A DNA stretch of 64,000 nucleotides, taken from the NCBI RefSeq assembly GCF_020905335.1, contig NZ_JAJJMN010000002.1, forward strand, positions 1 to 64,000, read 5' to 3'. Position 1 is the first letter of the stretch. Every line of letters begins with the position of its first letter. The notes beneath the pieces were generated by a model. That model made no database searches. It saw nothing but the letters and a program-made list of their open reading frames with translations, and was not told the DNA's origin. Positions 9,968 through 29,400 of the stretch are shown here, in pieces. Source of the stretch: Flavobacterium lipolyticum. GTDB taxonomy: Bacteria > Bacteroidota > Bacteroidia > Flavobacteriales > Flavobacteriaceae. The position numbers and the translations under genes were made by a program.

Positions 9968-12328
9968 TTATTTTAAAGACCATTTATACTTTGCTTCTGC
10001 ATTTCCTTCGATTAAATTACCGAAGAATTTGAGTTCATAATACTGACCATTTCTCCAGGTGTCAACGAAGTGATCGTATTCATCCGATGACGGATTTCCT
10101 GATTGTCCTCCGGCATAAACAGCATATCCTTTAGGTCTTTTTTTCATTTCCACAATCATTCTTAAAGAAGGCCCCCATCTTTTAGAAATGGCATTTAATG
10201 CTTGTGGATGTCCTCCTTGTGGTAAGCCCTTCTTGCTGAAATATTCAATATTGGACAAATGCATGATATCTATTTTATTTGTATTTCCCCAGTTCGAACG
10301 TTTGGTGGTATCATTCAGCATTTGATTAAATGAAAGAGCAATAATATCAGAAGCTGTTTCTGTTTTTTCGGTCGAAAGCAGATCGAAATATTTATTATTT
10401 GGATCGTTAGAAATCATATCTAGTAATACCAAATCATCAGGAACCAGTTTAGTCATCTTATATCGGAGTAATTCATCCCATGTATTATTTTTAATCTTAG
10501 TCCACCAAAGCTCAAATAATGGTGCCAGGTTAGAATCTTTATCATACTTGCAATTCCAAAGAGAAAATTCTTTTAAATATTTGTTTTTACCTGAAGGCAT
10601 TCTTTTTAATAAAACAGGAATCGCTAACTCTGCCAGACTGTTCGTATTATCCAGTTGCATTGATTTCATGTCTTCGACAGACAGTTTTTCTTTGGCTGAC
10701 AAATAGGAGTCAATTTTATTGGCTCTTAATTCCAGATAGTGGCCATAAATTAGGGGTGAGTTACTGATCTTATAAGGATTATTGTTTGCTGAAAACACAT
10801 AGCCCTGATCTGGATTGTAAGAATAAGGTAACTTGTCTAATACCGCTGTAGAAAACTGATCCGATCTGGTTCCGTCCATGACAAACTTACCTTGATTCTT
10901 CCATTTTTTTGCAAGAATTTTTCCTTGATGGTGAATCGAGATATTCCCTTCAACATCGGCATAAGTGAAATTTTGCGAAGGGCATTTGTAATATTGAATG
11001 GCGCTCTTAAATTGCGTATATTTTGTTGCTTTGTTCAGCTTGATAAGAGCTAAAATTTCATTAGAAGGATCTTGCAAGGTCCAATTTAAAGCATAGCCTT
11101 CTAGCTCCGGCTCTCCCTCGCGAAAATCAGAAGGTATAGGTCCATGTTTGGTGTAGTAAACGGTGTCTAAAAATGGTTTATCACCTCTAATTTTGATTTC
11201 TTCGACAACACTGTCCGTTTTTACCCATTTACCATCATACTTGTAATAAGAATAGTTGTCTTTAACCTCCAGTTTGTAATAATCACGTACATCATCAGAA
11301 CCATTTGTTAATCCCCAGGAAATTTTTTCATTAAATCCTATTACCACCCCCGGAACCCCCGGTATTGAATACCCGTAGACATTTTGTTCATTCGACTTTA
11401 ATTGTAGTTCATACCAAACTGCCGGAAACGAAAGGTTTAGGTGTGGGTCATTGCACAACATGGCGAATCCCGATTTGCTTTTTTTAGGCCCAACGGCCCA
11501 ACTATTACTCCCTAAATTGGGATTGTAAGCACTTGAGGATATTTGTGAAGCCGACGCAAGAAATGAATAATCAATATATTCATTCTCCGGCAGGGAGTCA
11601 AAAATTCGCTGAATAGCAAACTTTTCTTTAGTTTTCTTTAAATAGTAATCCGGAAACAGCTTATTGTATTCTTTTGATCCAAGAATCATCTGTAAGTAAG
11701 AAGCCGAAACATCTTCTTCGAAGCCCGATAAATTGGCTGACATATACTTCATGATTAAAACAGATTTTAAATTGGTCCATGGCTCCGGAGAATAATCCAT
11801 AAGTTTATATTCAATAGGTAGATCAGCATATGACAAACTGTTGATCCAAGCATTTACGCCGGCCGTATAACTGTCTAGTGCTCTTTTTGTTTCCTGGTCC
11901 TTTTCGATGTGTTTTAAGGTGTTTATAGCCGAAGTAAGGATTCCGTCTCTTCTTGTTTTTCGGTCGTGGACAAAGAATTCTTTCCCCAAAATTTCACACA
12001 TTCTTCCGGCAGACACATAGGACAAAAAATCCATTTGCCATAACCGATCAGATGCGCAAACATAACCTTGTGCAAAAAACATATCCTTTTGATTGGCTGC
12101 AAATATGTGAGGAACAGCTCTGTCATCGAAAATTATTTCAGTTTTCTGGCTGACTTTGATACTTATGTCTTTATTGCTGTTAGAAGTCTGTTCATTTTGA
12201 ACAGCACCTATAAACGGATTTAGAAAAGTACCCAGCGGAGGTACCATATAAACTTTTCGATCCAACACTACTACTAGCATTATCAAAGCAACTAACGGAA
12301 AAAGAAATTTTACGGATATTTTATTCAT
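9968..12328 (-). CDS. Penicillin acylase family N-terminal-nucleophile hydrolase
   Basis: The protein has 786 residues, the usual size for a penicillin acylase precursor. An N-terminal hydrophobic segment (about 8-22) should direct it to the periplasm. The family's self-cleavage site is visible as LGSNSWAVG; cleavage before Ser274 would expose the catalytic serine. Downstream family segments include NDPHLNLSFPAVWYE, GVPGVVIGFNEKISWGLTNGSDD and YADVEGNISIHHQGKI. Such enzymes cut amide bonds of acyl side chains; PvdQ, for example, removes the fatty acid from the pyoverdine precursor. The gene overlaps the PPTase gene by 8 bp, which ties it to the biosynthetic machinery. By inference it may remove an acyl or peptide leader after export, or act in self-protection. 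Confidence 0.92.
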   Translation of the reverse strand: MNKISVKFLFPLVALIMLVVVLDRKVYMVPPLGTFLNPFIGAVQNEQTSNSNKDISIKVSQKTEIIFDDRAVPHIFAANQKDMFFAQGYVCASDRLWQMDFLSYVSAGRMCEILGKEFFVHDRKTRRDGILTSAINTLKHIEKDQETKRALDSYTAGVNAWINSLSYADLPIEYKLMDYSPEPWTNLKSVLIMKYMSANLSGFEEDVSASYLQMILGSKEYNKLFPDYYLKKTKEKFAIQRIFDSLPENEYIDYSFLASASQISSSAYNPNLGSNSWAVGPKKSKSGFAMLCNDPHLNLSFPAVWYELQLKSNEQNVYGYSIPGVPGVVIGFNEKISWGLTNGSDDVRDYYKLEVKDNYSYYKYDGKWVKTDSVVEEIKIRGDKPFLDTVYYTKHGPIPSDFREGEPELEGYALNWTLQDPSNEILALIKLNKATKYTQFKSAIQYYKCPSQNFTYADVEGNISIHHQGKILAKKWKNQGKFVMDGTRSDQFSTAVLDKLPYSYNPDQGYVFSANNNPYKISNSPLIYGHYLELRANKIDSYLSAKEKLSVEDMKSMQLDNTNSLAELAIPVLLKRMPSGKNKYLKEFSLWNCKYDKDSNLAPLFELWWTKIKNNTWDELLRYKMTKLVPDDLVLLDMISNDPNNKYFDLLSTEKTETASDIIALSFNQMLNDTTKRSNWGNTNKIDIMHLSNIEYFSKKGLPQGGHPQALNAISKRWGPSLRMIVEMKKRPKGYAVYAGGQSGNPSSDEYDHFVDTWRNGQYYELKFFGNLIEGNAEAKYKWSLK

Positions 12329-12962
12329 TATAAAAGAGGGTTGGATCTAATTCTAGTTTATTAATTTGAATATTTGGTATTTGAGAACATAGTGCTAATT
12401 TATAATTTGCCGCAATCGATAGCGATGTTGTAAACCATTTGTTTTCAAAACCTATTGATGGTTCCAGACAGTTTTCATGATGTAAGCCTTCTACAATTCC
12501 AATTCCTTTTGCTTTTAAATAAGCTTCCTTGCGGGTCCACACAGTAAAGAAGGCGTCACTGGAATCATTAGCGTCAAGAATGAATTCTTTCTCCTGAACA
12601 TGAAGATAGTCTAATACAGTAGAGATATCAAAATCGGAGCATTTTTCAATGTCTATTCCAATTTCTTTATCTGAAAATGCTACAGTTACAAAGCTACCGG
12701 AATGAGAAATATTAAATTTTTTTCCTCCGGAATAAAAAGGCTTTCCTCCGGGAGATATTTGCCAATTTGACCAAGAAAATGTTCTGTTTGAAACTTCAAA
12801 ATATTTCTTCACCATTAATTTACTATACAATTTTAATCGCCTATCTTGATGATTTTGAAATCGCATAATTTCTTTGTGCATGTTATTTGGAAGTGACTTA
12901 AGCATACTCTCCATGTCAATTTGACTAACGTTTACAGTGTCAAGATACCAGAGATCAATCAT
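12321..12962 (-). CDS. 4'-phosphopantetheinyl transferase, Sfp type
   Basis: This 213-residue protein is in the normal size range of Sfp-type transferases. It has the family motifs FNISHS (83-88), GIDIEK (102-107, magnesium ligands Asp104 and Glu106) and WTRKEAYLKAKG (142-153). It transfers phosphopantetheine from coenzyme A to the conserved Ser of carrier domains. The roughly dozen T/ACP domains encoded in this window are its obvious substrates. It overlaps the type II thioesterase gene by 8 bp upstream and the acylase gene by 8 bp downstream, so the three are translationally linked. Confidence 0.95.
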   Translation of the reverse strand: MIDLWYLDTVNVSQIDMESMLKSLPNNMHKEIMRFQNHQDRRLKLYSKLMVKKYFEVSNRTFSWSNWQISPGGKPFYSGGKKFNISHSGSFVTVAFSDKEIGIDIEKCSDFDISTVLDYLHVQEKEFILDANDSSDAFFTVWTRKEAYLKAKGIGIVEGLHHENCLEPSIGFENKWFTTSLSIAANYKLALCSQIPNIQINKLELDPTLFYNE

Positions 12963-13656
12963 CTAGATTTGTTATGATTCGTACTAATTCTGCCGGGTGA
13001 TCGTGTATGAAAAAATGATTACCTTCAAGTAAATGGGACTTTAATGCAATAGAGGTGAAATGTCTCCAGTTTTCAATATCTTTTGCTGTTTCTTCTTCAT
13101 CTCCCATTACCGCAACAATAGGTGTATTTACTTTAAAATTGGAGTCTAAGCGAGGGCTTTTTTCTAATATTTCAAAGTCAGACCTCATGATGGGGGAGAA
13201 AAAATTGAATAGTTCCTCGTTCTCCAATACTTCGGTGGGAACACCGCCTAAACTGATTAGTTCTTCTTTTAATTCCTTGTCACTTATTGTAGAACGACAT
13301 CTGTCTTCATCGCCTGTTCCCGGACCGGCATTTCCTGCTACAATGAGTTTTTTTGGGGAATCACCCAGTTCTTCCATTTTTTTGGTTACCATAAGTCCCA
13401 ATTGTGCCCCCATGCTATGACCAAAAATGATATAAGGTTTATCATTTCTCAATGAATTAATTTGATGTAGTAAGTCGTCAACTGCTTCTGATTGAGTAGA
13501 TAATAAGTTTTCCTTAATTCTTTTTCCCCGGCCTGGTAATTCTAACAGATGGAAATCAAAATTTATGGGTAAAAAGGGTTTTAAAAAATTGAATGAATTG
13601 GAACTACCACCAGCAAAGTGCAATAAAAAAACTTGCATATTTTTTTTAAATATCAT
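12955..13656 (-). CDS. Type II thioesterase (NRPS/PKS editing hydrolase)
   Basis: This 233-residue alpha/beta hydrolase is of the kind that removes wrong or stalled acyl groups from carrier domains. Visible are HFAGGSSNSF near the start, ELPGRGKR, the nucleophile motif GHSMG (Ser81), a later acidic residue in VMGDEEE and the catalytic His in GNHFF. The start at residue 1 is uncertain: Met7, directly before VFLLHFAGG, is an equally good choice. It is the first gene of the minus-strand operon and faces the large NRPS gene across a 1.1 kb divergent region. No integrated thioesterase domain is seen in the window, so this free enzyme may matter for clearing or release. Confidence 0.93.
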   Translation of the reverse strand: MIFKKNMQVFLLHFAGGSSNSFNFLKPFLPINFDFHLLELPGRGKRIKENLLSTQSEAVDDLLHQINSLRNDKPYIIFGHSMGAQLGLMVTKKMEELGDSPKKLIVAGNAGPGTGDEDRCRSTISDKELKEELISLGGVPTEVLENEELFNFFSPIMRSDFEILEKSPRLDSNFKVNTPIVAVMGDEEETAKDIENWRHFTSIALKSHLLEGNHFFIHDHPAELVRIITNLDD

Positions 13657-14801: not shown

Positions 14802-17800
14802 ATGTTATATGATTCCGAAGTACTTTCATTATTGACTAAATTAAAGGCAAAGCAGATCGCAATAGCTCTGGATGATACTTTTGAAAATTTGAGAGTCAGA
14901 GGTGATTTGAAAAAATTAACGCCTGAAGAGAAACAAGCACTAGTTGATAATAAAGCTGAAATTATTCTTTTGTTAAAAGATAGTCTGTCGGGAATTCAAA
15001 CTATTGAAGCTGCAAAAGTACAATCTTCTTACCCAATTTCTGATGCCCAACGTAGAATCTGGATATTAAGTCAATTCAAAGATGGGTCTGTTGCGTACAA
15101 TATGCCTACGCATATTCATTTGAATAAGGACCTTAATATAAGTTACTTTAAGCAGGCTATAGAGGCTACCTTAGAGCGGCATGAAATGCTTCGAACGGTT
15201 TTTAGAGAAAATGAAGAAGGTGAAATTAGGCAGTGGATATTAAGCAGGGAGGATTTAGATTTTGAAATAGGTTATCGAGATTATCGGGAAGAGGAGTTTA
15301 AGCATGAGAAAGTCTTAAGTTTTATTGGTACGGATTCCTATAAGGCATTTGACCTGAAAAACGGACCTTTATTACGGGCTGCTCTGCTTCAGACAGCTGA
15401 TAATGAATACGTATTCTATTTCAACCTGCACCATATTATTAGTGATGGCTGGTCAATGAAAATTCTCTATAGCGATGTGTTTTTCTATTATGAAAAATAC
15501 ATGGAAGGAAACAATCAAAATTTGCCTTCTTTGAAGATTCAGTATAAGGATTATGCTTGTTGGCAGTTAGACCAGATTGAGAATGATTCATTTAAAGTTT
15601 ATAAAAAATATTGGTTAGATAAATTATCCGGTAAACTGGGAATCTTGGATTTACCAGGTGTCAACGTGCGGCCTAATGTGAAAACTCACAAAGGAAGAAC
15701 AGTTGCTACTTACTTAGATAAAGATTTAACAAACAGATTTAAGAATTATGCATTGCAAAGATCAGGAACTCTGTTTATGAGCCTTGTATCAGTGCTGAAA
15801 GCTTTTTTGCGCAGGGAAACGGCTCAGGATGATCTTATTGTAGGAACCCCTGTTGCGGGAAGAAATTTACTGGAATTGGAAAACCAAATCGGGTTTTATG
15901 TAAATACGCTAGTATTAAGAACCCGGATAGATGAAAAAGATAATTTAGAAGATATTTTTCGAAACGCAAAGCATACCATATTAGATGCTTATGCCCATCA
16001 AGCCTATCCTTTTGATCGCTTAGTGGAAGATATAGGACAAAGTAGACAAACTAGTAGAAGTGCTATATTTGATATTTTGGTGGTGCTACAGAATACGGAT
16101 GAAAAAATGAAGGAGATATCAATCTCTGAATCCAACATTGATGATATAGTTGAGATTAGAACAGGGACGAGTATCTACGATATTAAATTTGAGTTTCAGG
16201 AGAACGAGGATTATATCGCATTTTTAATTGAGTACAATCAGGATCTCTACAAGCCTGCAATAATAGAGAGGTTTATAAAACATTTTAAAACGTTTTCGAG
16301 CTTAGCCTTAACAAACCCTGCTCAGGAGATCGGATCTCTGGATTATCTGTCGGTTCAGGAAAAAGCAGAGTTGAAGTTGCTTGACAAACAAGTTTTTACA
16401 GCTGTTTCTAATACTACGATTGTAAGTCAGTTTCATGAACAGGTTAAAAGGAATAGTTTAAAAACAGCGTTGCGATGTGGTAATGAAAGTTATAGCTACG
16501 AGGAGTTAAATCGATGCGCAAATCAGGTTGCTCATTTTTTGCTGGAAGAAGCTGCTATCAAAAAGGAAGAAAAGATAGGATTAGTATTAAATAATGGATT
16601 CTACAGCATCGCTTCCAGGTTAGGAGTGTTAAAAGCTGGAGGATCCTACTTAGTTTTAATGCCGACAGCCCACGAAAACCATTTAGCATCGATGATTTCT
16701 GATTTTGAAATCCAAACATTAATCATTGAGAAGGAATTTATAGAACAGTCAAATAGGCTTCAATGGAGCTCAGCTACTCTGAAAAATTATTTATGTGTAG
16801 ACAGCAATGATGTAAAAGCGGAGAAGGAGTATCGTGATAATATAATGATGAGCCAAGAACTTTGGGACCATGTGGGGAGAAGGGCTGATGATCAAATAAC
16901 AAGTGGGGGATGGATAAGTAGTTATACAGGAGAAGCCATTTCGGATATAGAGATGGAGGAATATTCCATGAACGCCTATAATAAGCTCAGGAATAGTCTT
17001 CATTCTGACATGAGAGTACTGGAAATAGGATGTTCTTCCGGAATAACCTTAAGTAAGATTGCTCCTGAAGTTGCCCTGTATTACGGAACAGATTTATCTC
17101 CGATTATTCTCTCCGGAACTGAAAAAATGATTGCTGAGAACGGAATTAAAAATGTGAAATTAAAGCAACTGGTAGCGCATGAAATAGGAGAGCTGGAAGA
17201 GAAGGACTTTGATCTCATCATTATAAATAGTGTAATCCAAAATTTTCACGGGCATAATTATTTTCTTAAGGTGATAAAGGAAGGAGTTAAGTTGCTTAAA
17301 GAAGATGGAAAAATCTTTATTGGTGATATTATGGACATCAATAAGAAGTCTGAAATGCTAGAGGACTTGCATCAATTTAAACAAGATAACAAGGATAAAG
17401 GCTATACTACGAAGACTGATTTTTCGTCAGATTTTTTTGTGTCGAAAGGATATTTTGAGGACCTTATTATAACCGAAAAGAACATCGTAGAGGTGTCTGT
17501 TAGTGATAAGATAAGAACAATAGAGAATGAATTGACTAAATATCGTTATGATGTCATCTTGCAAATTGATAAGAGGCAGGTAAAAATAGTAACGGAAGAA
17601 GAAAATATTCAACAAAGAAAAATAAAAAGACAATATGACAGGACGGATCTGGTAGTAAGATCTGAAGTAAACCCGGAGATACAGGTTTCAGCAGACCAGG
17701 TAGCGACCATCATTAGTAATTTTGATACTGTCGACGAGCAAAAATCCTTGCTCATTCGTCATAGTGATGTAGTAGGGTTATTTAAAATGGATAGCACCTT

Positions 17801-20800
17801 ATTTGACTATGGAAGTAGTAACAAATGGGCAACTTTCCTTCAAAGAACCCCTTCGATATTGGAAATTTATGGGACGCTATTGTTTGGATCTGAGCTTGTC
17901 TTGGTTCCGGAATTGCTTCAGCATAATGAATCATTATTAGAGTTTCTGGAAAAAGAAAGCGTAACACATCTGAGTGTAGAAGCCTCTGCTGTTTCTAATT
18001 TATTATTGGCGAAAGAGTTGTATAATAAAGATTTAGAAATCTGCAGTTTGATTGTGGATGATGAAGTAGTAACAGACGATAAATTTCAGGAATCTATCAC
18101 GAATTCAGCATTTAGAATAATCAATAAGCGCGAAATAACAAATGATTCATTTCCGACTTTTGATTGGATTTTCACAAAAGAAGAAGAGCACGAACTATTG
18201 TTCACTTTCAACGATACAGCAGTAGCCTATCCGAAGGACAAGACAATTGTAGACTTGTTTGAAGAACAGGCTGCAAAGACACCGGATAACATCGCCATAG
18301 TCTTTGAAGATACAGAACTGACTTACAGGGAGCTTAATGAGCGATCCAATCAGTTGGCGCATTACCTAATAGAAAATTACAACATTCAGCCGGATGATCT
18401 GATAGGGATACAATTGGAGCGAAGTGAGTGGATGATTGTGTCGATACTGGGTGTGTTAAAATCGGGAGGAGCTTATGTTCCTATTGATCCGCAATACCCT
18501 CAGGAAAGAATAGACTATATTAAAGAAGATACTCAGTGTAAGGTTTGCCTGGATGAGCAAGAGTTAAGCAAGTTCAAAGAAAATCAGGAGCGTTATGCTA
18601 AAGATGCAGAGACTCGCAGGTCTCAACCGGAGAACCTGATTTATGTGATCTACACCTCAGGTTCGACAGGGAATCCAAAAGGAGTAATGCTCGAACATAG
18701 CGGTCTGGTAAACAGAATGCTTTGGATGAAACGTGACTTAGAAGTGAAAGAGGCAGATGTGTTTTTACAGAAAACACCTGTAACGTTTGACGTTTCGGTT
18801 TGGGAGTTATTCCTCCCATTGGTTTGTGGCAGTAAGCTTGTTTTTGCAAAACCGGAAGGGCATAAAGACCCGGTCTACTTAGAGGAGCTATTAGAATCAC
18901 AAAAAATAAGTATTATTCACTTTGTTCCTTCGATGTTGAGTGCAGCGTTGGACACTATAAAGTGGGATAAACTGGAATGTTTGCAGCATGTAATATGCAG
19001 TGGAGAAGCTTTATCAAAAAGAATCGAATCATCCTTTAAAGCAAAGGCTCCTTTTTCGAGCTTGCATAATTATTATGGACCAACGGAAGCTTCGATAGAT
19101 GTCACCGCAATAAACTTAAGCCAACACCCAACTGTGGGTCATGAAGTTTTGATAGGCAAGCCTGTTGACAATACACAGATTTACATCGTAAATGAAAAGA
19201 ATTCGCTTCAGCCGGTTGGGGTTTTAGGCGAGATTCTGATTGGAGGAGATCAGGTAGCACGAGGTTATTTAAATAAGGAAGCGTTAAGTCAGGAGAAGTT
19301 TATAACAAATCCTTTTAGAGCAGGAGAGCGTTTGTACAAAACAGGCGATTTGGGTCGTTGGCTACCCGATGGCAACATTGAGTTCATAGGGAGAAAAGAC
19401 GATCAGGTAAAAATAAGAGGACACAGGATAGAACTTGGAGAGATAGAACATGCTTTAGTAAAACATGAAGATGTAAACCAGGCAGTTGTTTTAGCCAGAG
19501 AGAACGAGTCAGCAGAGAAAGAACTTGTGGCGTATATCGTTTCTAATATTGAGCAGAACGCAAGTGATTTACGAACTTATTTAAAACAGTCGTTGCCGGA
19601 ATATATGCTTCCGACGTACTTTGTTCAACTCGAGGCCATCCCATTAACAGCCAGTGGTAAAATAGACAAAAAAGCATTACCGAATCCTGAGGGTGCGGGA
19701 CTATCAAGTGGTGTTGCCTATGTAGCGCCACGAAATGAGCTGGAAGAGAGACTGGTAAATATTTGGGAAGAAGTACTGGAAAGAGAAAATATTGGGATCA
19801 ATGATGACTTTTTTGCATTGGGAGGCCATAGCTTAAAAGCAGTTCGTCTGAGCAATGAGTATCAAAAGAAAATAGCAGTTAATTTATCGTTAGAAGAATT
19901 ATTTGCGCACACCAGCGTAGCTTCTCATGTGGCTCTGATAGCATCTTCAAAAAGAGAAGAATTCATTAAAATTAAAACAATAACTCCTCAGTCGGATTAT
20001 GCGCTCTCAGATGCTCAAAGAAGACTATGGATTGTGAGTCAATCTGAAAAAGGATCGATAGCCTATAATATGCCTGATAGTATTAATCTAACGGGAGACT
20101 TCAATATCGAAATTCTTACCAAAGCGATAAAGGCAACAATTGACCGTCATGAATCTTTAAGAACGATCTTTAGAAAAAATGAGTCGGGTGAGATAAGACA
20201 ATGGGTGCTTAACAGAGAAGAATTAGATTTTGAAGTAAAATATCAAGATTTCAGAAGTGATTTGGCTGGCCTGGAAAAAGCAGCAGCGTTTATAAATGAG
20301 GATTCATTTAAGCCCTTTGATTTGGAAAATGGCCCTTTATTTAGAGCTAATTTTATGAAAGTCACAGAGGATAGTTGTATTCTTTATTTCAATATGCATC
20401 ATATCATTAGTGATGGCTGGTCAATGGGGGTATTGACTAAAGATGTCCTGACTTACTACGATGCATTTATCGGAAACAAAAAGCCGGAATTAATTCCGCT
20501 GAAAATTCAGTACAAGGATTATTCAGCCTGGCAGTTAGCGCAATTGAACGAGGTGTCTTTTCAAGCACATAAGACATTCTGGCTGAACAGACTCTCAGGA
20601 GAATTACCATTACTGGATCTGCCAAGTACAAAGCAAAGACCAAAAGTTAAAACCAACAACGGTCATTGTCTCCAAGCCTATATTAATGCAAATCTTACTG
20701 ATAAATTAAGAAAATATTCGGAAAAGAATGGAGGAAGTTTATATATAGGGTTGTTGGCCTCTTGGAATATTCTAATGTACCATTACACCAACCAGAGAGA

Positions 20801-23192
20801 TATAATAATCGGATCTTCTGTTGCCAGTAGAAATCACCCTGATCTTGAAGGTCAAATAGGTTTCTATTCTAACACGCTGGCACTTAGAACGCAGATTGAA
20901 CCGGAAGAAAGTTTTCATGATTTTTTTAGGTCTGTAACAGATTCAACATTAAAGAGCCTTAACCATCAAATGTATCCTTTTATCAGGTTGGTAGAAGATT
21001 TAAATTTTCATGGTGATCCCGGTAGAAATGCCATTTTTGATGTTATGTTATTTCTTCAGAATAATGGTGAAAAAGTTAATAGAAATGAACTAAAAGAAAC
21101 GGAAGTAGAGGCCATTACAGACAAAGGGCATCGCGTATCTAAATTTGATATAAACGTTGCACTTCAGGAAGTAAATGATTGTGTATCCCTGGATGTGACA
21201 TTTAATCCCGATGTCTACGACAAAGACATGATAGAGGGGGTAATAAAACATTACAAACAATTATTAAATGCGCTATTAGAAACCCCTGAAGAAAAGATTT
21301 CACAAATAGAATATTTGTCTCACCAGGAAAAGTATGATCTTCTTCATTTTAATGCTGCAGAGGATTTACACTATCCCGAGAACAAAACAATTATAGCATT
21401 GTTTGAGGAACAGGTGTCAAAAACGCCGAATAATATAGCACTCGTATTTAGAAATAAAAAGTTCACTTATAACGAACTGGATAAATTATCAAACCAGTTG
21501 GCACATTATCTGGTTGAAAATTATAAGATCAAGCCTGATAATTTAATAGGGGTGATGCTCAACAGAAACGAATGGTCTATTGTTTCAATTCTGGGTATTT
21601 TAAAAGCAGGTGCAGCTTATGTTCCGATCGATGCTCAGGACCCTTCTGGCAGAAAAGATTTTATAATTAATGATGCCTCACTAGTATTATTAATCACAGA
21701 AGTTAATTTTATTCATGATATTGATTATTATGAAGGAGATATTTTTGCAATTGATGTAGAATTTGACCCGGAAAACTATGCTTCGGATAGGCTTTCTGTA
21801 GTGCCTGAAGCGGATAATCTGGCTTATGTGATCTATACTTCAGGTTCAACAGGGAAACCAAAAGGAGTAATGATTACTTCAAGAGCAGTTGTAGATTATG
21901 CTTTTGGGGTATTAGATAAAACTAACATTAGCACATGTAAGTCATTTGGGCTCGTTTCTACAATTTCAGCCGATTTGGGTAATACAGTTATTTTTACTTC
22001 ATTACTAATAGGTGCAGCACTTCACGTTATTGTCAAAGAGGATATCATCGATGCACATAAAATGCGGGAATTTGATTTGGATTGTATTAAGATGACTCCT
22101 TCACACTGGAAAGCATTGCAAACCAGTGAGGACGTTTTTATGCCTAATAAATGTTTGATTCTGGGTGGGGAACCATTTTCAGAAGAAATAATAAAATATA
22201 TAAAACGCAGTGTTAGTACTTGTGAGGTATACAATCACTATGGGCCAACCGAAACTACGATAGGTAAATTAATAAACAAAGTTGATAAGAGTCAAAATGT
22301 AGCTAGAGTCGCTTTAGGAAGACCCATTGGAAACAATAAGGTCTATATTTTAGATGCCAATCAACAACTTCGTCCTGTTGGTTTACCGGGTGAAATCTGT
22401 ATTAGCGGAGTAGGTTTGGCTAAGGGATACTTAAATCAAAAAGAATTAACCAAGGAAAAGTTTGTCAATAATCCTTTTGTTGTCGGAGAACTTTTATACA
22501 GAACTGGAGATTTAGGAAAATGGCTGCCAAATGGAGAGATAGAGTTTATCGGAAGGATAGATGAGCAAGTAAAAATACGAGGATATAGGATAGAATTGGA
22601 AGAGATTAAACTTGCACTACTAAAATTGGATGTTATAGAAGATGCCGTTTTGATAGTCAGGGAAAATCAAAACAATGAAAACGAACTTGTGGCCTATATG
22701 GTCACCAAATCAGAGCAAAATGGGAATGATCTGAGAGCCCGTTTAAGAAAAACTCTCCCCGAATATATGCTTCCGGCCTACTTTGTAGTACTTCAGAGTA
22801 TTCCGTTGACACTAAACGGTAAAGTAGACAAAGATTCCTTACCAGATCCACTAATAGCAGGTATTGATAATGGTGTAGAATATATTGCTCCCCGAAACGA
22901 AGTAGAAAGGAAAATTATTGAAATTATTGCAGACATTTTAGGAAAAAATAAAAGTCAGATAAGTGTTCATGATAACTTTTTTGATCTTGGAATCAGTTCA
23001 TTGGGATTAATGAAATTATATGTTTTTATTCATAAAGAATTGAATTCAAATCTTCAGGCGGTTTCTGTATTTGAATTTACCTCGGTTAGCACATTAGCGG
23101 CATATTTAATCAATGGAGTACAATCCAACGTTGCCGTGTTGGCAAAGAGTAGTATTGCTTCTGAAATGGATGATATGATTGATTTGATTTGA
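14802..23192 (+). CDS. NRPS: TubC-C-[degenerate A with MT]-A(Ser)-T-C-A(Asp)-T
   Basis: The protein has 2796 residues. A TubC-like docking domain (1-60) is followed by a C domain (about 78-500, HHIISDG near 210). Next comes an A-domain N-terminal part (A1 near 563, A2 near 605) interrupted by a SAM methyltransferase (motif I VLEIGCSSG near 739). The A-domain remainder (about 960-1115) has lost its core motifs. A complete A domain follows (about 1130-1640) with pocket D-V-W-H-I-S-Y-I-D, close to the serine code, then T (GGHS, near 1671). The second module has C (about 1732-2170), A with D-L-T-K-I-G-H-I-G, close to the Asp code, and T (LGISS, near 2726). By inference the first module makes Ser or O-methylserine and the second Asp, a possible target of the SyrP-like hydroxylase. 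The C-terminal tail is acidic (MDDMIDLI). A PKS gene follows after 141 bp. Confidence 0.95.
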   Translation: MLYDSEVLSLLTKLKAKQIAIALDDTFENLRVRGDLKKLTPEEKQALVDNKAEIILLLKDSLSGIQTIEAAKVQSSYPISDAQRRIWILSQFKDGSVAYNMPTHIHLNKDLNISYFKQAIEATLERHEMLRTVFRENEEGEIRQWILSREDLDFEIGYRDYREEEFKHEKVLSFIGTDSYKAFDLKNGPLLRAALLQTADNEYVFYFNLHHIISDGWSMKILYSDVFFYYEKYMEGNNQNLPSLKIQYKDYACWQLDQIENDSFKVYKKYWLDKLSGKLGILDLPGVNVRPNVKTHKGRTVATYLDKDLTNRFKNYALQRSGTLFMSLVSVLKAFLRRETAQDDLIVGTPVAGRNLLELENQIGFYVNTLVLRTRIDEKDNLEDIFRNAKHTILDAYAHQAYPFDRLVEDIGQSRQTSRSAIFDILVVLQNTDEKMKEISISESNIDDIVEIRTGTSIYDIKFEFQENEDYIAFLIEYNQDLYKPAIIERFIKHFKTFSSLALTNPAQEIGSLDYLSVQEKAELKLLDKQVFTAVSNTTIVSQFHEQVKRNSLKTALRCGNESYSYEELNRCANQVAHFLLEEAAIKKEEKIGLVLNNGFYSIASRLGVLKAGGSYLVLMPTAHENHLASMISDFEIQTLIIEKEFIEQSNRLQWSSATLKNYLCVDSNDVKAEKEYRDNIMMSQELWDHVGRRADDQITSGGWISSYTGEAISDIEMEEYSMNAYNKLRNSLHSDMRVLEIGCSSGITLSKIAPEVALYYGTDLSPIILSGTEKMIAENGIKNVKLKQLVAHEIGELEEKDFDLIIINSVIQNFHGHNYFLKVIKEGVKLLKEDGKIFIGDIMDINKKSEMLEDLHQFKQDNKDKGYTTKTDFSSDFFVSKGYFEDLIITEKNIVEVSVSDKIRTIENELTKYRYDVILQIDKRQVKIVTEEENIQQRKIKRQYDRTDLVVRSEVNPEIQVSADQVATIISNFDTVDEQKSLLIRHSDVVGLFKMDSTLFDYGSSNKWATFLQRTPSILEIYGTLLFGSELVLVPELLQHNESLLEFLEKESVTHLSVEASAVSNLLLAKELYNKDLEICSLIVDDEVVTDDKFQESITNSAFRIINKREITNDSFPTFDWIFTKEEEHELLFTFNDTAVAYPKDKTIVDLFEEQAAKTPDNIAIVFEDTELTYRELNERSNQLAHYLIENYNIQPDDLIGIQLERSEWMIVSILGVLKSGGAYVPIDPQYPQERIDYIKEDTQCKVCLDEQELSKFKENQERYAKDAETRRSQPENLIYVIYTSGSTGNPKGVMLEHSGLVNRMLWMKRDLEVKEADVFLQKTPVTFDVSVWELFLPLVCGSKLVFAKPEGHKDPVYLEELLESQKISIIHFVPSMLSAALDTIKWDKLECLQHVICSGEALSKRIESSFKAKAPFSSLHNYYGPTEASIDVTAINLSQHPTVGHEVLIGKPVDNTQIYIVNEKNSLQPVGVLGEILIGGDQVARGYLNKEALSQEKFITNPFRAGERLYKTGDLGRWLPDGNIEFIGRKDDQVKIRGHRIELGEIEHALVKHEDVNQAVVLARENESAEKELVAYIVSNIEQNASDLRTYLKQSLPEYMLPTYFVQLEAIPLTASGKIDKKALPNPEGAGLSSGVAYVAPRNELEERLVNIWEEVLERENIGINDDFFALGGHSLKAVRLSNEYQKKIAVNLSLEELFAHTSVASHVALIASSKREEFIKIKTITPQSDYALSDAQRRLWIVSQSEKGSIAYNMPDSINLTGDFNIEILTKAIKATIDRHESLRTIFRKNESGEIRQWVLNREELDFEVKYQDFRSDLAGLEKAAAFINEDSFKPFDLENGPLFRANFMKVTEDSCILYFNMHHIISDGWSMGVLTKDVLTYYDAFIGNKKPELIPLKIQYKDYSAWQLAQLNEVSFQAHKTFWLNRLSGELPLLDLPSTKQRPKVKTNNGHCLQAYINANLTDKLRKYSEKNGGSLYIGLLASWNILMYHYTNQRDIIIGSSVASRNHPDLEGQIGFYSNTLALRTQIEPEESFHDFFRSVTDSTLKSLNHQMYPFIRLVEDLNFHGDPGRNAIFDVMLFLQNNGEKVNRNELKETEVEAITDKGHRVSKFDINVALQEVNDCVSLDVTFNPDVYDKDMIEGVIKHYKQLLNALLETPEEKISQIEYLSHQEKYDLLHFNAAEDLHYPENKTIIALFEEQVSKTPNNIALVFRNKKFTYNELDKLSNQLAHYLVENYKIKPDNLIGVMLNRNEWSIVSILGILKAGAAYVPIDAQDPSGRKDFIINDASLVLLITEVNFIHDIDYYEGDIFAIDVEFDPENYASDRLSVVPEADNLAYVIYTSGSTGKPKGVMITSRAVVDYAFGVLDKTNISTCKSFGLVSTISADLGNTVIFTSLLIGAALHVIVKEDIIDAHKMREFDLDCIKMTPSHWKALQTSEDVFMPNKCLILGGEPFSEEIIKYIKRSVSTCEVYNHYGPTETTIGKLINKVDKSQNVARVALGRPIGNNKVYILDANQQLRPVGLPGEICISGVGLAKGYLNQKELTKEKFVNNPFVVGELLYRTGDLGKWLPNGEIEFIGRIDEQVKIRGYRIELEEIKLALLKLDVIEDAVLIVRENQNNENELVAYMVTKSEQNGNDLRARLRKTLPEYMLPAYFVVLQSIPLTLNGKVDKDSLPDPLIAGIDNGVEYIAPRNEVERKIIEIIADILGKNKSQISVHDNFFDLGISSLGLMKLYVFIHKELNSNLQAVSVFEFTSVSTLAAYLINGVQSNVAVLAKSSIASEMDDMIDLI
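16340..18180 (+). other. Degenerate adenylation domain carrying a methyltransferase
   Basis: The A1 and A2 regions (SYEELNRCANQVAHFLL; LGVLKAGGSYLVL) are still readable. They are followed by the GGWISSYTGE and YYGTDLS segments usual for methyltransferases inserted between A2 and A3. After the MT, the expected TSGSTGxPKG becomes ISNFDTVDEQKS, the FDFSVWE region becomes RTPSILE, and the YGxTET region becomes KREITNDS. ATP binding and substrate selection should be lost while the MT motifs remain. A complete Ser-type A domain starts directly afterwards. Confidence 0.8.
18183..19870 (+). repeat. Serine A-T repeat, copy 1
   Basis: This serine-type A domain with its carrier domain is almost identical in DNA to 27955-29660, and in the A part to 38918-40480. 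Upstream of it lies the degenerate A/MT segment, which the other copies lack. Confidence 0.88.
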
Positions 23193-23333: not shown

Positions 23334-26300
23334 ATGAATAATAGATCTATAAAAAAGGATATCGCGATAATCGGTATGTCGGGACTATTCCCGAAGTCAA
23401 AAAGTATAATGGACTTTTGGAAGAATCTGGTAGACGGTAAGGAGTTAATCCAATTTCATGAAGATGAAGACCTGGAAAAGGCAGGAGTAGACCGGGATCT
23501 TATCCGTAATCCGAAATATGTAAAGGGTAGTTGTTTAATAGAGGAGCCCGGAAGTTTCGATTTTTCTTTTTTTGGATACACAAAAGAAGAAGCGGCTTTG
23601 ATGGATCCACAAACCAGAATCCTACACGAACAGGCTTGGAAAAGTTTAGAAGATGCAGGATATAATCCTCATAATTATTCTCAGAAAATAGGGAGTTTTT
23701 TTAGTGCAAGTGATAATATAAATTGGAGGAATTATGTATCTCTTTCCACCACATTAAATGTAAACCCTTTTTTCATTAAGCATATATCAAATGTTAACTC
23801 TGTAAGCAGATTAATTTCTTACTCCCTAAATTTAAAAGGTCCAAGTTACTTTGTTGACACAGCGTGTTCAAGTTCATTAGTGGCAGTTCATATTGCTTGT
23901 CGAAGTTTGTTAATGAAAGAATGCACCATGGCAATAGCAGGCGGGGTAAGTATTGGATCAAATACAGCTGTTGGCTATTTGTATGAGGAAGGTTCTATTC
24001 TGTCTAAGGATGGTCATTGTAAAGCATTCGATCAGGATTCTTCGGGTACAGTACAAGGAGAGGGTGCAGGGGTTGTGGTTTTAAAAAGACTGGCAGATGC
24101 CTTAACTGACAGAGATCATATTTATGGCGTAATCCGATCCACTTCTGTCAACAATGACGGTAGCTTGAAGGTAGGTTATGTAGCTCCAAGTATTATCGGA
24201 CAATATGAATGTATTGATACCGCCTTAAAAATTGCTGAGGTTGATCACAAAGCTATTTCGTATATCGAAGCGCATGGAACTGGTACTAAATTAGGTGATG
24301 CGATAGAGATAGAAGCGTTGAATAGAGCTTTTAATTATGATACATCACATCAATGCAGCATAGGATCTCTAAAGACTAATTTTGGACATATGGATGCTGC
24401 TGCAGGAGTTAGCGGATTAATTAAAACAGCACTGTCTTTAGAAAAAAAAATGTTGCCGGCCTCTTTGCATTTCAAGACATCAAATCCGGATATTAAATTT
24501 AAATCAGGACCATTTTCCGTCAATGACAAGTTAACGGAATGGGAGAGCGATAAGCCTCGATTAGCGGGCGTAAGTAGCTTTGGTATTGGGGGTACGAATG
24601 CACATGCAATTCTGGAAGAACCGCCTTTATCACAATTGGCAAGCGTTCCTACAGTATATCAACTTTTCCCATTTTCTGCTAAAACAAGATCTTCTTTAGA
24701 AAGTTATGGTCATTCTTTGAAAGATTTTTTAAGGGAAAATCAAAAAGTGAATATGGCAGATTTAGCCTATACACTTAAAACGGGAAGATATAGCCATAAG
24801 TTTCGAAATTTCATTATTGGAAAGGACTCTAAGGAGGCCATTGCACAATTAGAGGAGTTAGATTTTCGCCAGACTTTCAACGATAGTAAGCAGAAAGAAA
24901 TCGTATTGATGTTTTCCGGTCAGGGAAGCCAGTATTACGGAATGGGGAAACAATTGTATTTGCAGTATCCTGATTTTAAATTAATTATAGACGAAGGTTT
25001 AAGGATTTTAAATGACGAAACAGGAGTCGACTATAAAGGTATCCTGGGGTACCATGAAGAAAGTGGTTCAGAAAGAGATAAGATAAATGACACCTGTTAT
25101 ACGCAACCGCTGCTATTTCTGTTGGAATACGGTTTTGCTAGTTTTTTGCTGAAGTTAGGGGTTAAGCCATCACAAATGATAGGCCATAGCCTTGGTGAAT
25201 ATGTAGCTGCCTGTATTAGTGAAGTTTTTACTTTTGAAGAGGGGATTAGACTAGTGGTTAGACGGGCGCAGTTAATGAGTGAAGTAGAACGCGGTGCTAT
25301 GTTGAGCGTTCCGCTTTCGGCTAAAGAAGCTATTGAGATGAGTCCGCCGGATATCGCTATCGCTGCAATTAATACAGAGAATTCCTGTGTTATTTCGGGG
25401 AGTTCTGCAAGTATTAAGACAGTTGAAGATTTACTTTCTGCTAAAGGAATAACATTTTCGAGACTTAGAACCTATTACGCCTTTCACAGTGCGATGATGG
25501 ATCCAATTTTAGAGGCCTACGAAAGGGAACTGAAAAAAGTAAACTTTTCATATCCTAAATATTCATTCATCTCCTGCACTACCGGGGAACCGATTAAAAA
25601 AGAAGAAGCAGTTTCTCCTAAGTACTGGGTAAAACATTTGCGGGAAACCGTCAATTTTTCTAAAGGGTTAGATTTTTTATTGAAAGAAGGCAATTCCATT
25701 TTTATTGAGATTGGATCTGAAAATACCTTATTGGACTTTTTACGACATAATACAAATTTTTATTCCGGTTTAGTTTTGGCTTCCGTACTCAAACATCCGA
25801 CAGCCACAAAAGATGATTCTTATTATTTATTAAAAGCATTAGGGACTTTGTGGAGAAGTGGAGTACCTGTTAATTGGGATGAATATTATTCCGGTCAATC
25901 AAGAAATAAAGTTTCAGCGCCGACTTATTCATTTGATAAAATAGTTTTTCCAGCCAGAGTGAATCCAATGCAAATACTGATCAACTTGTATACCTCTGGT
26001 TCGATAGATAAGCTGAATAATGGAGAGGTTATTTCGCAAGTTGGCCGGGCTTTAGAATCGGATAAGGAAGCGTCAGAGATGTTTTTAGAAAACTTAGAAA
26101 GACCGGATATAGAAACTTTGTATGCTGAAGCCAAAACAGAAATAGAAAAAGAATTAGCAGAACTATGGAAATCTTCCTTTGGATATGATAAGATAGGTGT
26201 AAATGATGACTTTTTTGAGCTGGGAGGAGATTCATTGAAGGCAATCACATTACTGAAAAGAGTTCACAAATCCTTTGATATTGAGATTACCGTGGGCGAT

Positions 26301-26417
26301 TTTTTTGAAAATAGTAGCATAAGAAAACTTGCGAGAGAGATTGATTTAGCATTAGAAGTTAAAGAATTAAATAAAGCTGAGAACAAATCGGCGACGTCCA
26401 ACCAAATACGATTGTAA
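23334..26417 (+). CDS. Type I PKS module KS-AT-ACP
   Basis: The protein has 1027 residues and no reductive domain. The ketosynthase (about 8-430) has Cys178 in DTACSSS and its two His in EAHGTGT and KTNFGH. The acyltransferase (about 525-850) has FSGQGSQ, Ser619 in GHSLGEY, and YAFHS at the selectivity site, which points to malonyl-CoA. The carrier domain has LGGDS (Ser967). It should add a two-carbon unit to the chain from the preceding NRPS, leaving a beta-keto group, because no KR is present. It begins directly with the KS and lacks the TubC-type docking domain of its neighbours. Its stop codon is 3 bp from the next start, so the genes are co-translated. Confidence 0.95.
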   Translation: MNNRSIKKDIAIIGMSGLFPKSKSIMDFWKNLVDGKELIQFHEDEDLEKAGVDRDLIRNPKYVKGSCLIEEPGSFDFSFFGYTKEEAALMDPQTRILHEQAWKSLEDAGYNPHNYSQKIGSFFSASDNINWRNYVSLSTTLNVNPFFIKHISNVNSVSRLISYSLNLKGPSYFVDTACSSSLVAVHIACRSLLMKECTMAIAGGVSIGSNTAVGYLYEEGSILSKDGHCKAFDQDSSGTVQGEGAGVVVLKRLADALTDRDHIYGVIRSTSVNNDGSLKVGYVAPSIIGQYECIDTALKIAEVDHKAISYIEAHGTGTKLGDAIEIEALNRAFNYDTSHQCSIGSLKTNFGHMDAAAGVSGLIKTALSLEKKMLPASLHFKTSNPDIKFKSGPFSVNDKLTEWESDKPRLAGVSSFGIGGTNAHAILEEPPLSQLASVPTVYQLFPFSAKTRSSLESYGHSLKDFLRENQKVNMADLAYTLKTGRYSHKFRNFIIGKDSKEAIAQLEELDFRQTFNDSKQKEIVLMFSGQGSQYYGMGKQLYLQYPDFKLIIDEGLRILNDETGVDYKGILGYHEESGSERDKINDTCYTQPLLFLLEYGFASFLLKLGVKPSQMIGHSLGEYVAACISEVFTFEEGIRLVVRRAQLMSEVERGAMLSVPLSAKEAIEMSPPDIAIAAINTENSCVISGSSASIKTVEDLLSAKGITFSRLRTYYAFHSAMMDPILEAYERELKKVNFSYPKYSFISCTTGEPIKKEEAVSPKYWVKHLRETVNFSKGLDFLLKEGNSIFIEIGSENTLLDFLRHNTNFYSGLVLASVLKHPTATKDDSYYLLKALGTLWRSGVPVNWDEYYSGQSRNKVSAPTYSFDKIVFPARVNPMQILINLYTSGSIDKLNNGEVISQVGRALESDKEASEMFLENLERPDIETLYAEAKTEIEKELAELWKSSFGYDKIGVNDDFFELGGDSLKAITLLKRVHKSFDIEITVGDFFENSSIRKLAREIDLALEVKELNKAENKSATSNQIRL

Positions 26418-26420
26418 TTT

Positions 26421-29400
26421 ATGAAAGAGTTGATTAGCGAACTTAAATCAAAAAATATTTTTTTATCCGTAGATAAAGAAGAGTTAGTTATTGATTTTGA
26501 TGGCGATAACTTATCTCATGATTTAATCTCTAAGATAAAAGATAATAAGTTAGCGCTTATTAATTACTTAGGAAAGTATCACAACGATCGTAAATACACT
26601 GAAATTCCTGTACTTTCTTTAAATAATCATTATTCAATCTCTGATGCCCAAAGAAGACTCTGGATTTTGAGCCAATATGAAGGAGCCTCAGCTGCTTATA
26701 ACATGATGGTAAGTATAACGTTAGAGGGAAAGTATAAATTGGCTTTATTTGAAAAATCATTTGATAATCTCATCGACCGCCATGAGATCTTACGAACCGT
26801 TTTCAAAGAAGATGAGTCAGGAGAGATCAGGCAATGGATACTTGAAAGGGAAGATTTAGGGTTTACGATCGATTATCAGGACTTTAGAGAAGAAGCTGAT
26901 AAGAAAGAAAAAGTAGAAGCCTATATAACAGCTGACTCCCATCAGGTATTTGATCTGGAAAAAGGACCTTTACTCAGAGCGGCCTTACTTCAGGTAGAGG
27001 AAGAGGAATATTGGTTCTACTTCAACATACACCATATTATTAGTGATGGCTGGTCAATGGAGGTATTAACCAAAGATATATTCAAGTACTATGTAGCCTG
27101 TAGGGAAGGGAAAGAACCTGATATGGAGGAATTGAGAATCCAGTACAAGGATTATTCAGCCTGGCAGCTGACTCAATTGAATCAGGAGTCATTTAAGGCG
27201 CATGGAGAATATTGGCTGGACAAACTCTCAGGAGAGCTGCCATTACTGGAGCTTCCAAGCAGCAAACAGCGACCAAAACTAAAAACCTATAGGGGGCATA
27301 GCTTAGGCGCTTATCTTGACAAAGCAACAACAGCTAAGCTAAAGGGATATGTGCAGGAGAATGGCGGCAGTCTTTTCATGGGCTTACTGGCCTCATGGAA
27401 GGTTTTAATGTACCGTTATACCGGTCAGCAGGATATCATCGTAGGAATTCCGGTAGCGGGTAGAGATCATGCTGATCTGGAAGACCAGATCGGTTTTTAT
27501 GTAAACACGCTGGCTTTAAGAAACAGGGTTAATCCTCAGGAAAGTTTTGACGGTTTTTACCAGTCTGTAAAAGAGCATACTTTAAAGAGCTATAACCACC
27601 AGATGTATCCTTTTGATCGATTGGTGGAAGATTTAAATCTTCAAAGAGATACAAGCAGAAGTGCGGTATTTGACGTCATGCTTACCGTTAAAACTAATAG
27701 CGAAAGAATTGCAGGAGCTGAAATATCAGAAGAAGCTTTAAATCAGGTAGTTGATCAGGGTTATAGCACAGCAAAATTTGATATAGAGATTACTTTTCAG
27801 GAGGTGGGCGATTGCCTGTCCTTGAATTTTATATTCAACTCGGATGTGTACGAGAAGGAGATGGTTGAAGGACTGATAGGGCATTACAAGCAGTTGTTAA
27901 ATGGGCTGTTGGAAACCCCTGAAGAGAAAATAGCACAAATAGATTATGTATCGGAAGAAGAGAAACACAAACTGCTGTTTACCTTCAATGATACAACAGC
28001 AGCTTATCCGAAGGACAAGACAATTGTAGATTTAATTGAAGAGCAAGTAGAAAAGACACCGGATAACATCGCCATAGTCTTTGAGAATACAGAACTGACT
28101 TACAGAGAGCTTAATGAGCGATCCAATCAGTTGGCGCATTACCTAATAGAAAATTACAACATTCAGCCGGATGATCTGATAGGGATACAATTGGAGCGAA
28201 GCGAGTGGATGATTGTGTCGATACTGGGTGTGTTAAAATCAGGAGGAGCTTATGTTCCTATTGATCCGCAATACCCTCAGGAAAGAATAGACTATATTAA
28301 AGAAGATACACAGTGTAAGGTTTGCCTGGATGAGCAAGAGTTAAGCAGGTTCAAAGAAAACCAGGAGCGTTATGCTAAAGACGCAGAGACTCGCAGGTCT
28401 CAACCGGAGAACCTGATTTATGTGATCTACACCTCAGGTTCAACAGGGAATCCAAAAGGAGTAATGCTCGAACATAGCGGTCTGGTAAACAGAATGCTTT
28501 GGATGAAACGTGACTTAGAAGTGAAAGAGGCAGATGTGTTTTTACAGAAAACACCTGTAACGTTTGACGTTTCGGTTTGGGAGTTATTCCTCCCATTGGT
28601 TTGTGGCAGTAAGCTTGTTTTTGCAAAACCGGAAGGGCATAAAGATCCGGTCTACTTAGAGGAGCTATTAGAATCACAAAAAATAAGTATTATTCACTTT
28701 GTTCCTTCAATGTTGAGTGCAGCGTTGGACACTATAAAGTGGGATAAACTGGAATGTTTGCAGCATGTAATATGCAGTGGAGAAGCTTTATCAAAAAGAA
28801 TCGAATCATCCTTTAAAGCAAAGGCTCCTTTTTCGAGCTTGCATAATTATTATGGACCAACGGAAGCTTCGATAGATGTCACCGCAATAAACTTAAGCCA
28901 ACACCCAACTGTGGGTCATGAAGTTTTGATAGGCAAGCCTGTTGACAATACACAGATTTACATTGTAAATGAAAAGAATTCGCTTCAGCCGGTTGGGGTT
29001 TTAGGCGAGATTCTGATCGGAGGAGATCAGGTAGCGCGAGGTTATTTAAATAAGGAAGCGTTAAGCCAGGAGAAGTTTATAACAAATCCTTTTAGAGCAG
29101 GAGAGCGTCTGTACAAAACAGGCGATTTGGGTCGTTGGCTACCCGATGGCAACATTGAGTTCATAGGGAGAAAAGACGATCAGGTAAAAATAAGAGGACA
29201 CAGGATAGAACTTGGAGAGATAGAACATGCTTTAGTAAAAAATGAAGATGTAAACCAGGCAGTTGTTTTAGCCAGAGAGAACGAGTCAGCAGAGAAAGAA
29301 CTTGTAGCGTATATCGTTTCTAATGTCGAGCAGAACGCAAGTGATTTACGAGCTTATTTAAAACAGTCGTTGCCGGAATATATGCTTCCGACGCATTTTG

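Follow-up and report, generated by a model that had tools for sequence, protein, structure and literature searches.

A methyltransferase carried by a dead adenylation domain in front of a complete adenylation domain in a nonribosomal peptide synthetase of Flavobacterium lipolyticum

The locus and the cassette

A single open reading frame (positions 14802-23192) in the first 64,000 nucleotides of contig NZ_JAJJMN010000002.1 of Flavobacterium lipolyticum (the whole stretch analyzed, referred to as the window) encodes a nonribosomal peptide synthetase (NRPS) of 2796 amino acids, in which a methyltransferase (MT) is embedded in an adenylation (A) domain that has lost its own adenylation motifs and a complete A domain follows directly behind. 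The existence of this dead A-MT cassette before a complete A domain was confirmed. The comparisons described below make it fairly probable that the cassette is a scaffold for an N-methyltransferase, which would act on the residue activated by the next A domain. The gene is the first of a run of NRPS and polyketide synthase genes extending to position ~68640 of the contig.

The domains were located with profiles built from the live A, condensation (C), and carrier (T) domains of the window and then refined on relatives; figures for the window protein are reported under the name P0001. Amino acid names attached to specificity codes, here and below, follow published code tables and are presumptive. 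The domain order was C-[A N-part - MT - decayed A3-A5 part]-A(Ser)-T-C-A(Asp)-T, with the following features:

15018..16355, plus strand: C domain of module 1 (residues 73-518; profile score 561 bits; Pfam Condensation)
16407..16760, plus strand: N-terminal part of the dead A domain, motifs A1-A2 (residues 536-653; profile score 115 bits)
16839..17561, plus strand: S-adenosylmethionine (SAM)-dependent MT between A2 and A3 (residues 680-920; 371 bits; VLEIGCSSG at 17016)
17739..18125, plus strand: decayed A3-A5 part of the dead A domain (residues 980-1108; profile score 35 bits; alignment)
18126..18209, plus strand: junction from the end of the dead A domain into the in-frame C-A-type linker (EEHELLFTFNDTAVAYPKD) of the next A domain (alignment)
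18210..19703, plus strand: complete live A domain with the code DVWHISYID, which we take to be Ser-type (residues 1137-1634; profiles)
19713..19910, plus strand: T domain of module 1, the presumed site of methylation (profile score 97 bits)
19989..21323, plus strand: C domain of module 2 (profile)
21366..22865, plus strand: A domain of module 2 with the code DLTKIGHIG, presumably Asp-type (profile)
22872..23075, plus strand: T domain of module 2 (profile)

The MT was an insertion of the a2-a3 type, with the A2 motif LKAGGSY in front and the A3-A5 remnant behind, and both its SAM-binding motif and its family match were those of a class I SAM-dependent NRPS methyltransferase. The third part of the interrupted A domain (A6-A10) was absent altogether in the profile search, not merely degraded, whereas the three parts of the live A domain scored 200, 174, and 292 bits. 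A previous reading of this DNA from the letters only (the sequence-only reading) had placed the MT between A2 and A3 and a complete Ser-type A domain directly behind it, and both placements were borne out.

Decay of the A domain and conservation of the methyltransferase

Relatives were collected with three protein searches (best 120 of 789, best 120 of 7931, and best 120 of 584 matches). The first set contained 121 proteins (the best 120 of 789 and that of the window) with 142 MTs; the two later searches added 173 proteins, giving an enlarged set of 294 listed proteins with 218 MTs above 40 bits. These were 177 intact a2-a3 insertions, 25 insertions at a8-a9, seven of the dead type, one differently built case (P0052), and eight cut by the protein end. 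The dead type, i.e., a C domain, an A N-part, the MT, a decayed A3-A5 part, all three parts of a complete A domain and a T domain, in this order, was found in P0001-P0004, P0021, P0025, and P0026 among the 294 listed proteins, and no further member was found among the 173 proteins added by the two later searches. In all seven, both A pieces were present and their frames were open. An assembly artefact or a pseudogene was rejected, given the same order in seven proteins, the lack of stops and ratios of non-synonymous to synonymous substitution (dN/dS) below 1.

The claim of the sequence-only reading that A3, A4, and A5 were degraded around the MT was confirmed, and A6-A10 were missing as well. 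When the window protein was aligned to the intact relative P0036, the A3 loop IYTSGTTGNPKGV of the latter was replaced by ISNFDTVDEQKSL, the A4 stretch FDFSVWEIYG by RTPSILEIYG, and the A5 stretch INMYGITETT by INKREITNDS; right after the degraded A5, a C-A-type linker (HELLFTFNDTAVAYPKDKTI) led into the next A domain. With the A3 loop and A5 lost, the interrupted domain does not have the adenylation motifs of a bifunctional domain, and its degenerate core motifs are those of inactive A domains of the albicidin type. An intact A3 or A5 was looked for in every member: the A3 loop was present in none of the seven dead cassettes versus 131 of the 133 other A3-A5 parts that follow an MT. The A5 motif was likewise present in none of the seven versus 130 of 133; of the three exceptions, two were truncated by the protein end. 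The first A4 residue was Asp in two of the seven (P0021 and P0025) versus all 133 others.

The MT was the conserved part of the cassette, as had been proposed. Taking as invariant those residues conserved at ≥95% among 22 intact Thr-type relatives (Thr-type meaning at most two differences from DFWNIGMVH, with 21 of the 22 exact), P0001 kept 22/26 in the A N-part, 75/80 in the MT, and 23/65 in the A3-A5 part. Each of the seven dead-cassette members retained 75-76 of the 80 MT invariants. A disrupted SAM site was also looked for, and the motif EIGCSSG was identical in the seven dead and five intact aligned rows. The MT score was steady at 364-378 bits, and the remnant scored 89 (P0025), 44, 35, 32, 32, 30, and 22 (P0026) bits in the same proteins.

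Selection was estimated from a single species pair, the window and Niastella populi, by a simple count of the Nei-Gojobori type. The dN/dS was 0.14 (0.10-0.19) for the C domain, 0.20 (0.11-0.31) for the dead A N-part (residues 519-660), 0.13 (0.08-0.21) for the MT, and 0.36 (0.22-0.57) for the dead A3-A5 part (residues 965-1108). The difference between the A3-A5 part and the MT was 0.06 to 0.45. The dead A domain is thus under relaxed but not absent constraint, and the N-part is more constrained than the A3-A5 remnant, probably because it stays in native contact with the C domain. It is very unlikely that the entire cassette, together with its MT, is a disappearing relic and the product is unmethylated at Ser. 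The death of the surrounding A domain and the dN/dS of 0.58 in the 44-codon linker behind the MT would agree with such a relic, but the MT itself is held about as tightly as the C domain and keeps its invariant residues and SAM motif in all seven members.

A collapse of the A fold, which the sequence-only reading had raised, was looked for in a predicted structure and was not seen: the joined A-core fold persisted around the MT. The crystal structure 5wmm (TioS AMA4) was both the best sequence match of the cassette in the Protein Data Bank and its first Foldseek match. The idea that the cassette survives only for its MT stands insofar as the MT is the best conserved part; it may understate the matter, because the modelled fold was not collapsed and the A pieces are under selection. 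For the same reasons it is rather unlikely that the dead A pieces are neutral filler and the MT would work equally well if it stood free between the C and A domains. The faster evolution of the A3-A5 piece relative to the MT fits such filler; the upper bound of its dN/dS stays below 1, the N-part is at 0.20, the frames are open in all seven members and the model retains the joined core, all of which speak against it. Furthermore, no MT that had lost both A pieces was found among the 218 listed MTs (210 of them uncut by the protein end). An evolutionary step toward a free MT, as had also been suggested, agrees with the graded decay series of 89 to 22 bits, but not with the retention of both A pieces in all seven proteins.

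Distribution and origin of the cassette

Genome searches were performed in samples of the genus, the family, and the phylum. Some match (E up to 1e-3) was obtained in 122 of 199 genomes of the genus sample, among those listed mostly to A-domain parts, and the only match spanning the full query among those listed (at most six candidates scored per genome) was that of the window itself. At E up to 1e-60, matches were found in 2 of 397 genomes of the family sample and in 9 of 395 of the phylum sample, including that of the window in each of these overlapping samples. Reading 43 loci for domain order gave 24 MTs, and the dead order was confined to copies of the window locus (L005, L009, L012, and L027) and to DNA of Niastella populi (L010), where the contig stops within the live A domain. 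The remaining MT loci of the 43 were intact, of the a8-a9 type (L040 and L041), doubly interrupted (L013) or cut (L033). No further dead cassettes came from the genome searches of the three samples. A contig of Flavobacterium sp. UGB4466, from rainbow trout larvae, was 100% identical to the cassette stretch and was not counted as independent.

Two trees of the MTs were analyzed, the first with the 142 MTs of the 121 proteins and the second with 49 hand-chosen rows, from which P0022_1718 was omitted as a long branch; L038 and L039 were also long branches and uninformative for the second tree. In the first tree, the dead MTs fell in a starred set of 32 rows. Among the 24 intact partner A domains of this set, 22 were presumably Thr-type; of the other two, P0030 was presumably Leu-type and P0038 Gly-like or unassigned. 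The ancestor was, on the basis of these partners, most likely a Thr-activating A-MT-A domain. In the second tree, the eight dead rows (including L010) and P0030 formed a clade (97/95), within which the intact P0030 paired with P0025 (92/71). Hence, either the A core was lost twice within the clade or the P0030 line acquired a whole new A part; the starred branches require at least two changes of the label. P0052 lay outside the dead clade with its placement unresolved, and half a C domain replaces its A core, a differently built loss. Because of this position and build, its A-core loss was probably a separate event. Residues 683-1300 of P0052 comprise a short A3-like remnant behind the MT, the second half of a C domain and a complete A domain.

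L013, from the same genus as the window, has an A domain interrupted twice, by an MT at A2-A3 and by an insert of ~220 residues just before A7, which resembles another SAM methyltransferase as judged by eye. L038, on plasmid pTM1 of Tistrella mobilis (1-3501), is a lone A-MT(a2-a3)-A-T without a C domain and with a hydrolase- or thioesterase-like tail. Neither L038 nor L039 (a Sandaracinus plasmid) could be tied to a known product.

Specificity codes, the proposed methylation, and neighboring genes

The A domains behind the dead cassettes differed in their codes. The MT of P0001 was 82% identical to those of P0002, P0003, and P0004, and the MTs of these near-orthologous modules were 82-85% identical in general. 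The identities to P0002, P0003, and P0004, respectively, were 77, 81, and 64% in the N-part of the live A domain, 65, 72, and 72% in its A6-A10 part, and only 33, 34, and 42% in its A3-A5 core. Because of this low core identity amid similar MTs and flanking A parts, the alignments indicate that the live A core was exchanged between the near-orthologous modules. The live codes were DVWHISYID in P0001, DLKNVGSDV in P0002, DLFNNALTY in P0003, and DASTIAAIC in P0004, and we take those of P0001, P0003, and P0004 to be Ser-type, Ala-type, and aromatic-like. Presumably, P0021 and P0025 are also Ser-type and P0026 is Ala-type. In P0030, the nearest intact relative, an MT near that of the cassette is joined to a code assumed to be Leu-type. 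The A code of the next module appeared to be Asp-type in six of the seven dead-cassette proteins and Thr-type in P0026. Exact codes were mixed among the 133 intact a2-a3 insertions: by presumptive names, Thr 29, Asn 10, Leu 10, Val 7, Ser 8 (two code variants), Tyr 5, and Phe 5, besides numerous less frequent codes.

The sequence-only reading had proposed that the MT methylates the side-chain oxygen of the Ser loaded by the next A domain, giving O-methylserine. Ser-type codes behind three of the seven dead cassettes (P0001, P0021, and P0025) and Thr-type, likewise a hydroxy residue, in 22 of the 24 intact partners of the surrounding clade argue for it. However, Ala-type codes stand in P0003 and P0026 and an aromatic-like one in P0004, P0003 and P0004 having MTs 82% identical to that of P0001, a near MT is paired with the Leu code of P0030, and Leu-, Val-, Ile-, Phe-, and Asn-type codes occur among the 133 intact insertions. 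The partners in P0003, P0026, and P0030 would not offer a methylatable side chain, and O-methylserine was rejected as the family-wide chemistry. According to the review PMC11355689, the a2-a3 MTs of TioN and MarQ do act on side chains, by S-methylation, whereas those of TtcC and TtmB of thalassospiramide N-methylate, and KtzH, which had been named as an a2-a3 precedent, sits at a8-a9. Given the mixed partner codes and these placements, O-methylserine is a weaker reading than N-methylation, and we consider O-methylation of the Ser side chain quite unlikely, although the Ser-type members themselves may still carry it out. The a2-a3 position alone does not predict side-chain methylation.

Methylation of the α-amine is favored as the one chemistry fitting every assigned member, because Ala and Leu side chains cannot be O- or S-methylated; the MT is a putative N-methyltransferase, indicated indirectly by the partner codes of the related MTs (Ser-, Ala-, aromatic-like, Leu-, and Thr-type, by presumptive names). 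A Thr-activating A-MT-A domain would have gained a complete A domain, with the C-A linker belonging to it, just behind the A5 region. The original A domain would then have lost the ATP loop, the substrate pocket and everything from A6 on, a loss that is seen in the present protein. The remnant probably keeps contact with the C domain and presents the MT. The live A domain would activate Ser and load the T domain, and the carrier would visit the MT held by the pseudo-A core, where Ser may be methylated on its α-amine, to be condensed as N-methyl-Ser and handed to the next module. Since the MT would no longer rely on its surrounding A domain, the live A core would be exchangeable (Ser, Ala, and aromatic-like codes) with methylation retained. 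Tentatively, the dead A domain may even be an adaptor maintained by selection, through which an N-methyltransferase becomes independent of the specificity of any A domain.

Several points weigh against N-methylation of the next residue. The Thr-type codes of 22 of the 24 intact clade partners are what a hydroxy-specific O-methyltransferase would also show, the Thr-type lines may O-methylate Thr, and the MT could have been orphaned by the exchange of the live cores without having decayed so far. On the MT tree, the partner A domains clustered by side-chain class (21 and 28 changes versus 41 and 45 when shuffled); therefore, the MTs were not freely mixed among partners. The a8-a9 N-methyltransferases, McnC included, branched far from the cassette MT in the 49-row tree, so that the likeness to TioS is no proof of N-methylation, and the rigid-body fit of the Foldseek match to 5wmm was loose (TM 0.34, rmsd 21). 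The names given to the codes are presumptive throughout and no amino acid was assigned to that of P0002; the dN/dS values come from one species pair and a simple count, and the alignments behind the models had 19 rows.

All of the parts of this arrangement are already known. TioN, MarQ, TtcC, and TtmB share with the cassette the insertion between A2 and A3, a SAM-dependent MT and a T domain behind (PMC11355689); there, the interrupted A domain activates the substrate, whereas here its motifs are lost and there is a second, complete A domain behind it. TioS AMA4 differs in having its N-methyltransferase at a8-a9 of an active A domain. Cases in which an inactive A domain leaves the loading of its carrier to another A domain are described for albicidin, cystobactamid, ramoplanin, and enduracidin (PMC8949500), and further inactive A domains for module 1 of the thalassospiramide line of Tistrella (PMC5577590) and, without an MT, for module 2 of the fungal SidD (PMC10192304). 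In these systems, as in the cassette, an A domain of the line has lost what adenylation requires and another supplies the residue, but there the residue comes from a separate A-T protein or from a different module and the dead domain carries no MT. In the window, the complete A domain is fused directly behind in the same protein, not provided as a separate A-T protein. A-core (subdomain) recombination is also known in NRPS (PMC8097286), and in the near-orthologous modules compared above the live A core is likewise the most divergent region; here, the exchange adjoins an MT lying outside the active A domain. Chitinopeptins contain N-methyl-Val (PMC9248904), and the responsible MT was not located. 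An inactive A domain as an MT holder before a complete A domain with an exchanged core was not met in the literature searched, which does not show its absence in print.

MT-interrupted A domains have been described as bifunctional, activating and methylating the same residue, and here the MT would serve the next A domain instead. Four near-orthologous lines carry Ser, Ala, aromatic-like, and unassigned live codes with much the same cassette. This raises the questions of whether an N-methyltransferase needs only a structural A core to reach a neighboring carrier and whether the cassette could be moved before any A-T pair. If the proposal is true, the neighboring A core could be exchanged at will with the N-methyl group kept, a natural "add a methylation to any module" design.

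Additionally, other genes of the window were inspected. The gene at 31-4578 encodes an NRPS module in which a luciferase-like monooxygenase (TIGR04020, 482 bits; Pfam Bac_luciferase at residues 807-1105) interrupts the A domain between A4 and A5. Behind this first NRPS gene lie a TauD-type dioxygenase (4661-5617) and a CmlA-type diiron beta-hydroxylase (5805-7436), possibly two amino-acid hydroxylases. On the minus strand, 9968-13656 contains penicillin-acylase-type hydrolase-, phosphopantetheinyl transferase-, and type II thioesterase-like genes, as judged by eye. Directly after the cassette protein, 23334-26417 encodes ketosynthase (KS), acyltransferase (AT), and T domains in the order KS-AT-T, followed by C-A-T-C-A-T-KS-AT-KR-T (KR, ketoreductase) at 26421-37385. 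The genes at 40756-48636 and 48633-63998 contain tandem C-type domain pairs, a weak one (143-146 bits) followed by one of 236-256 bits, possibly epimerization domains followed by C domains.

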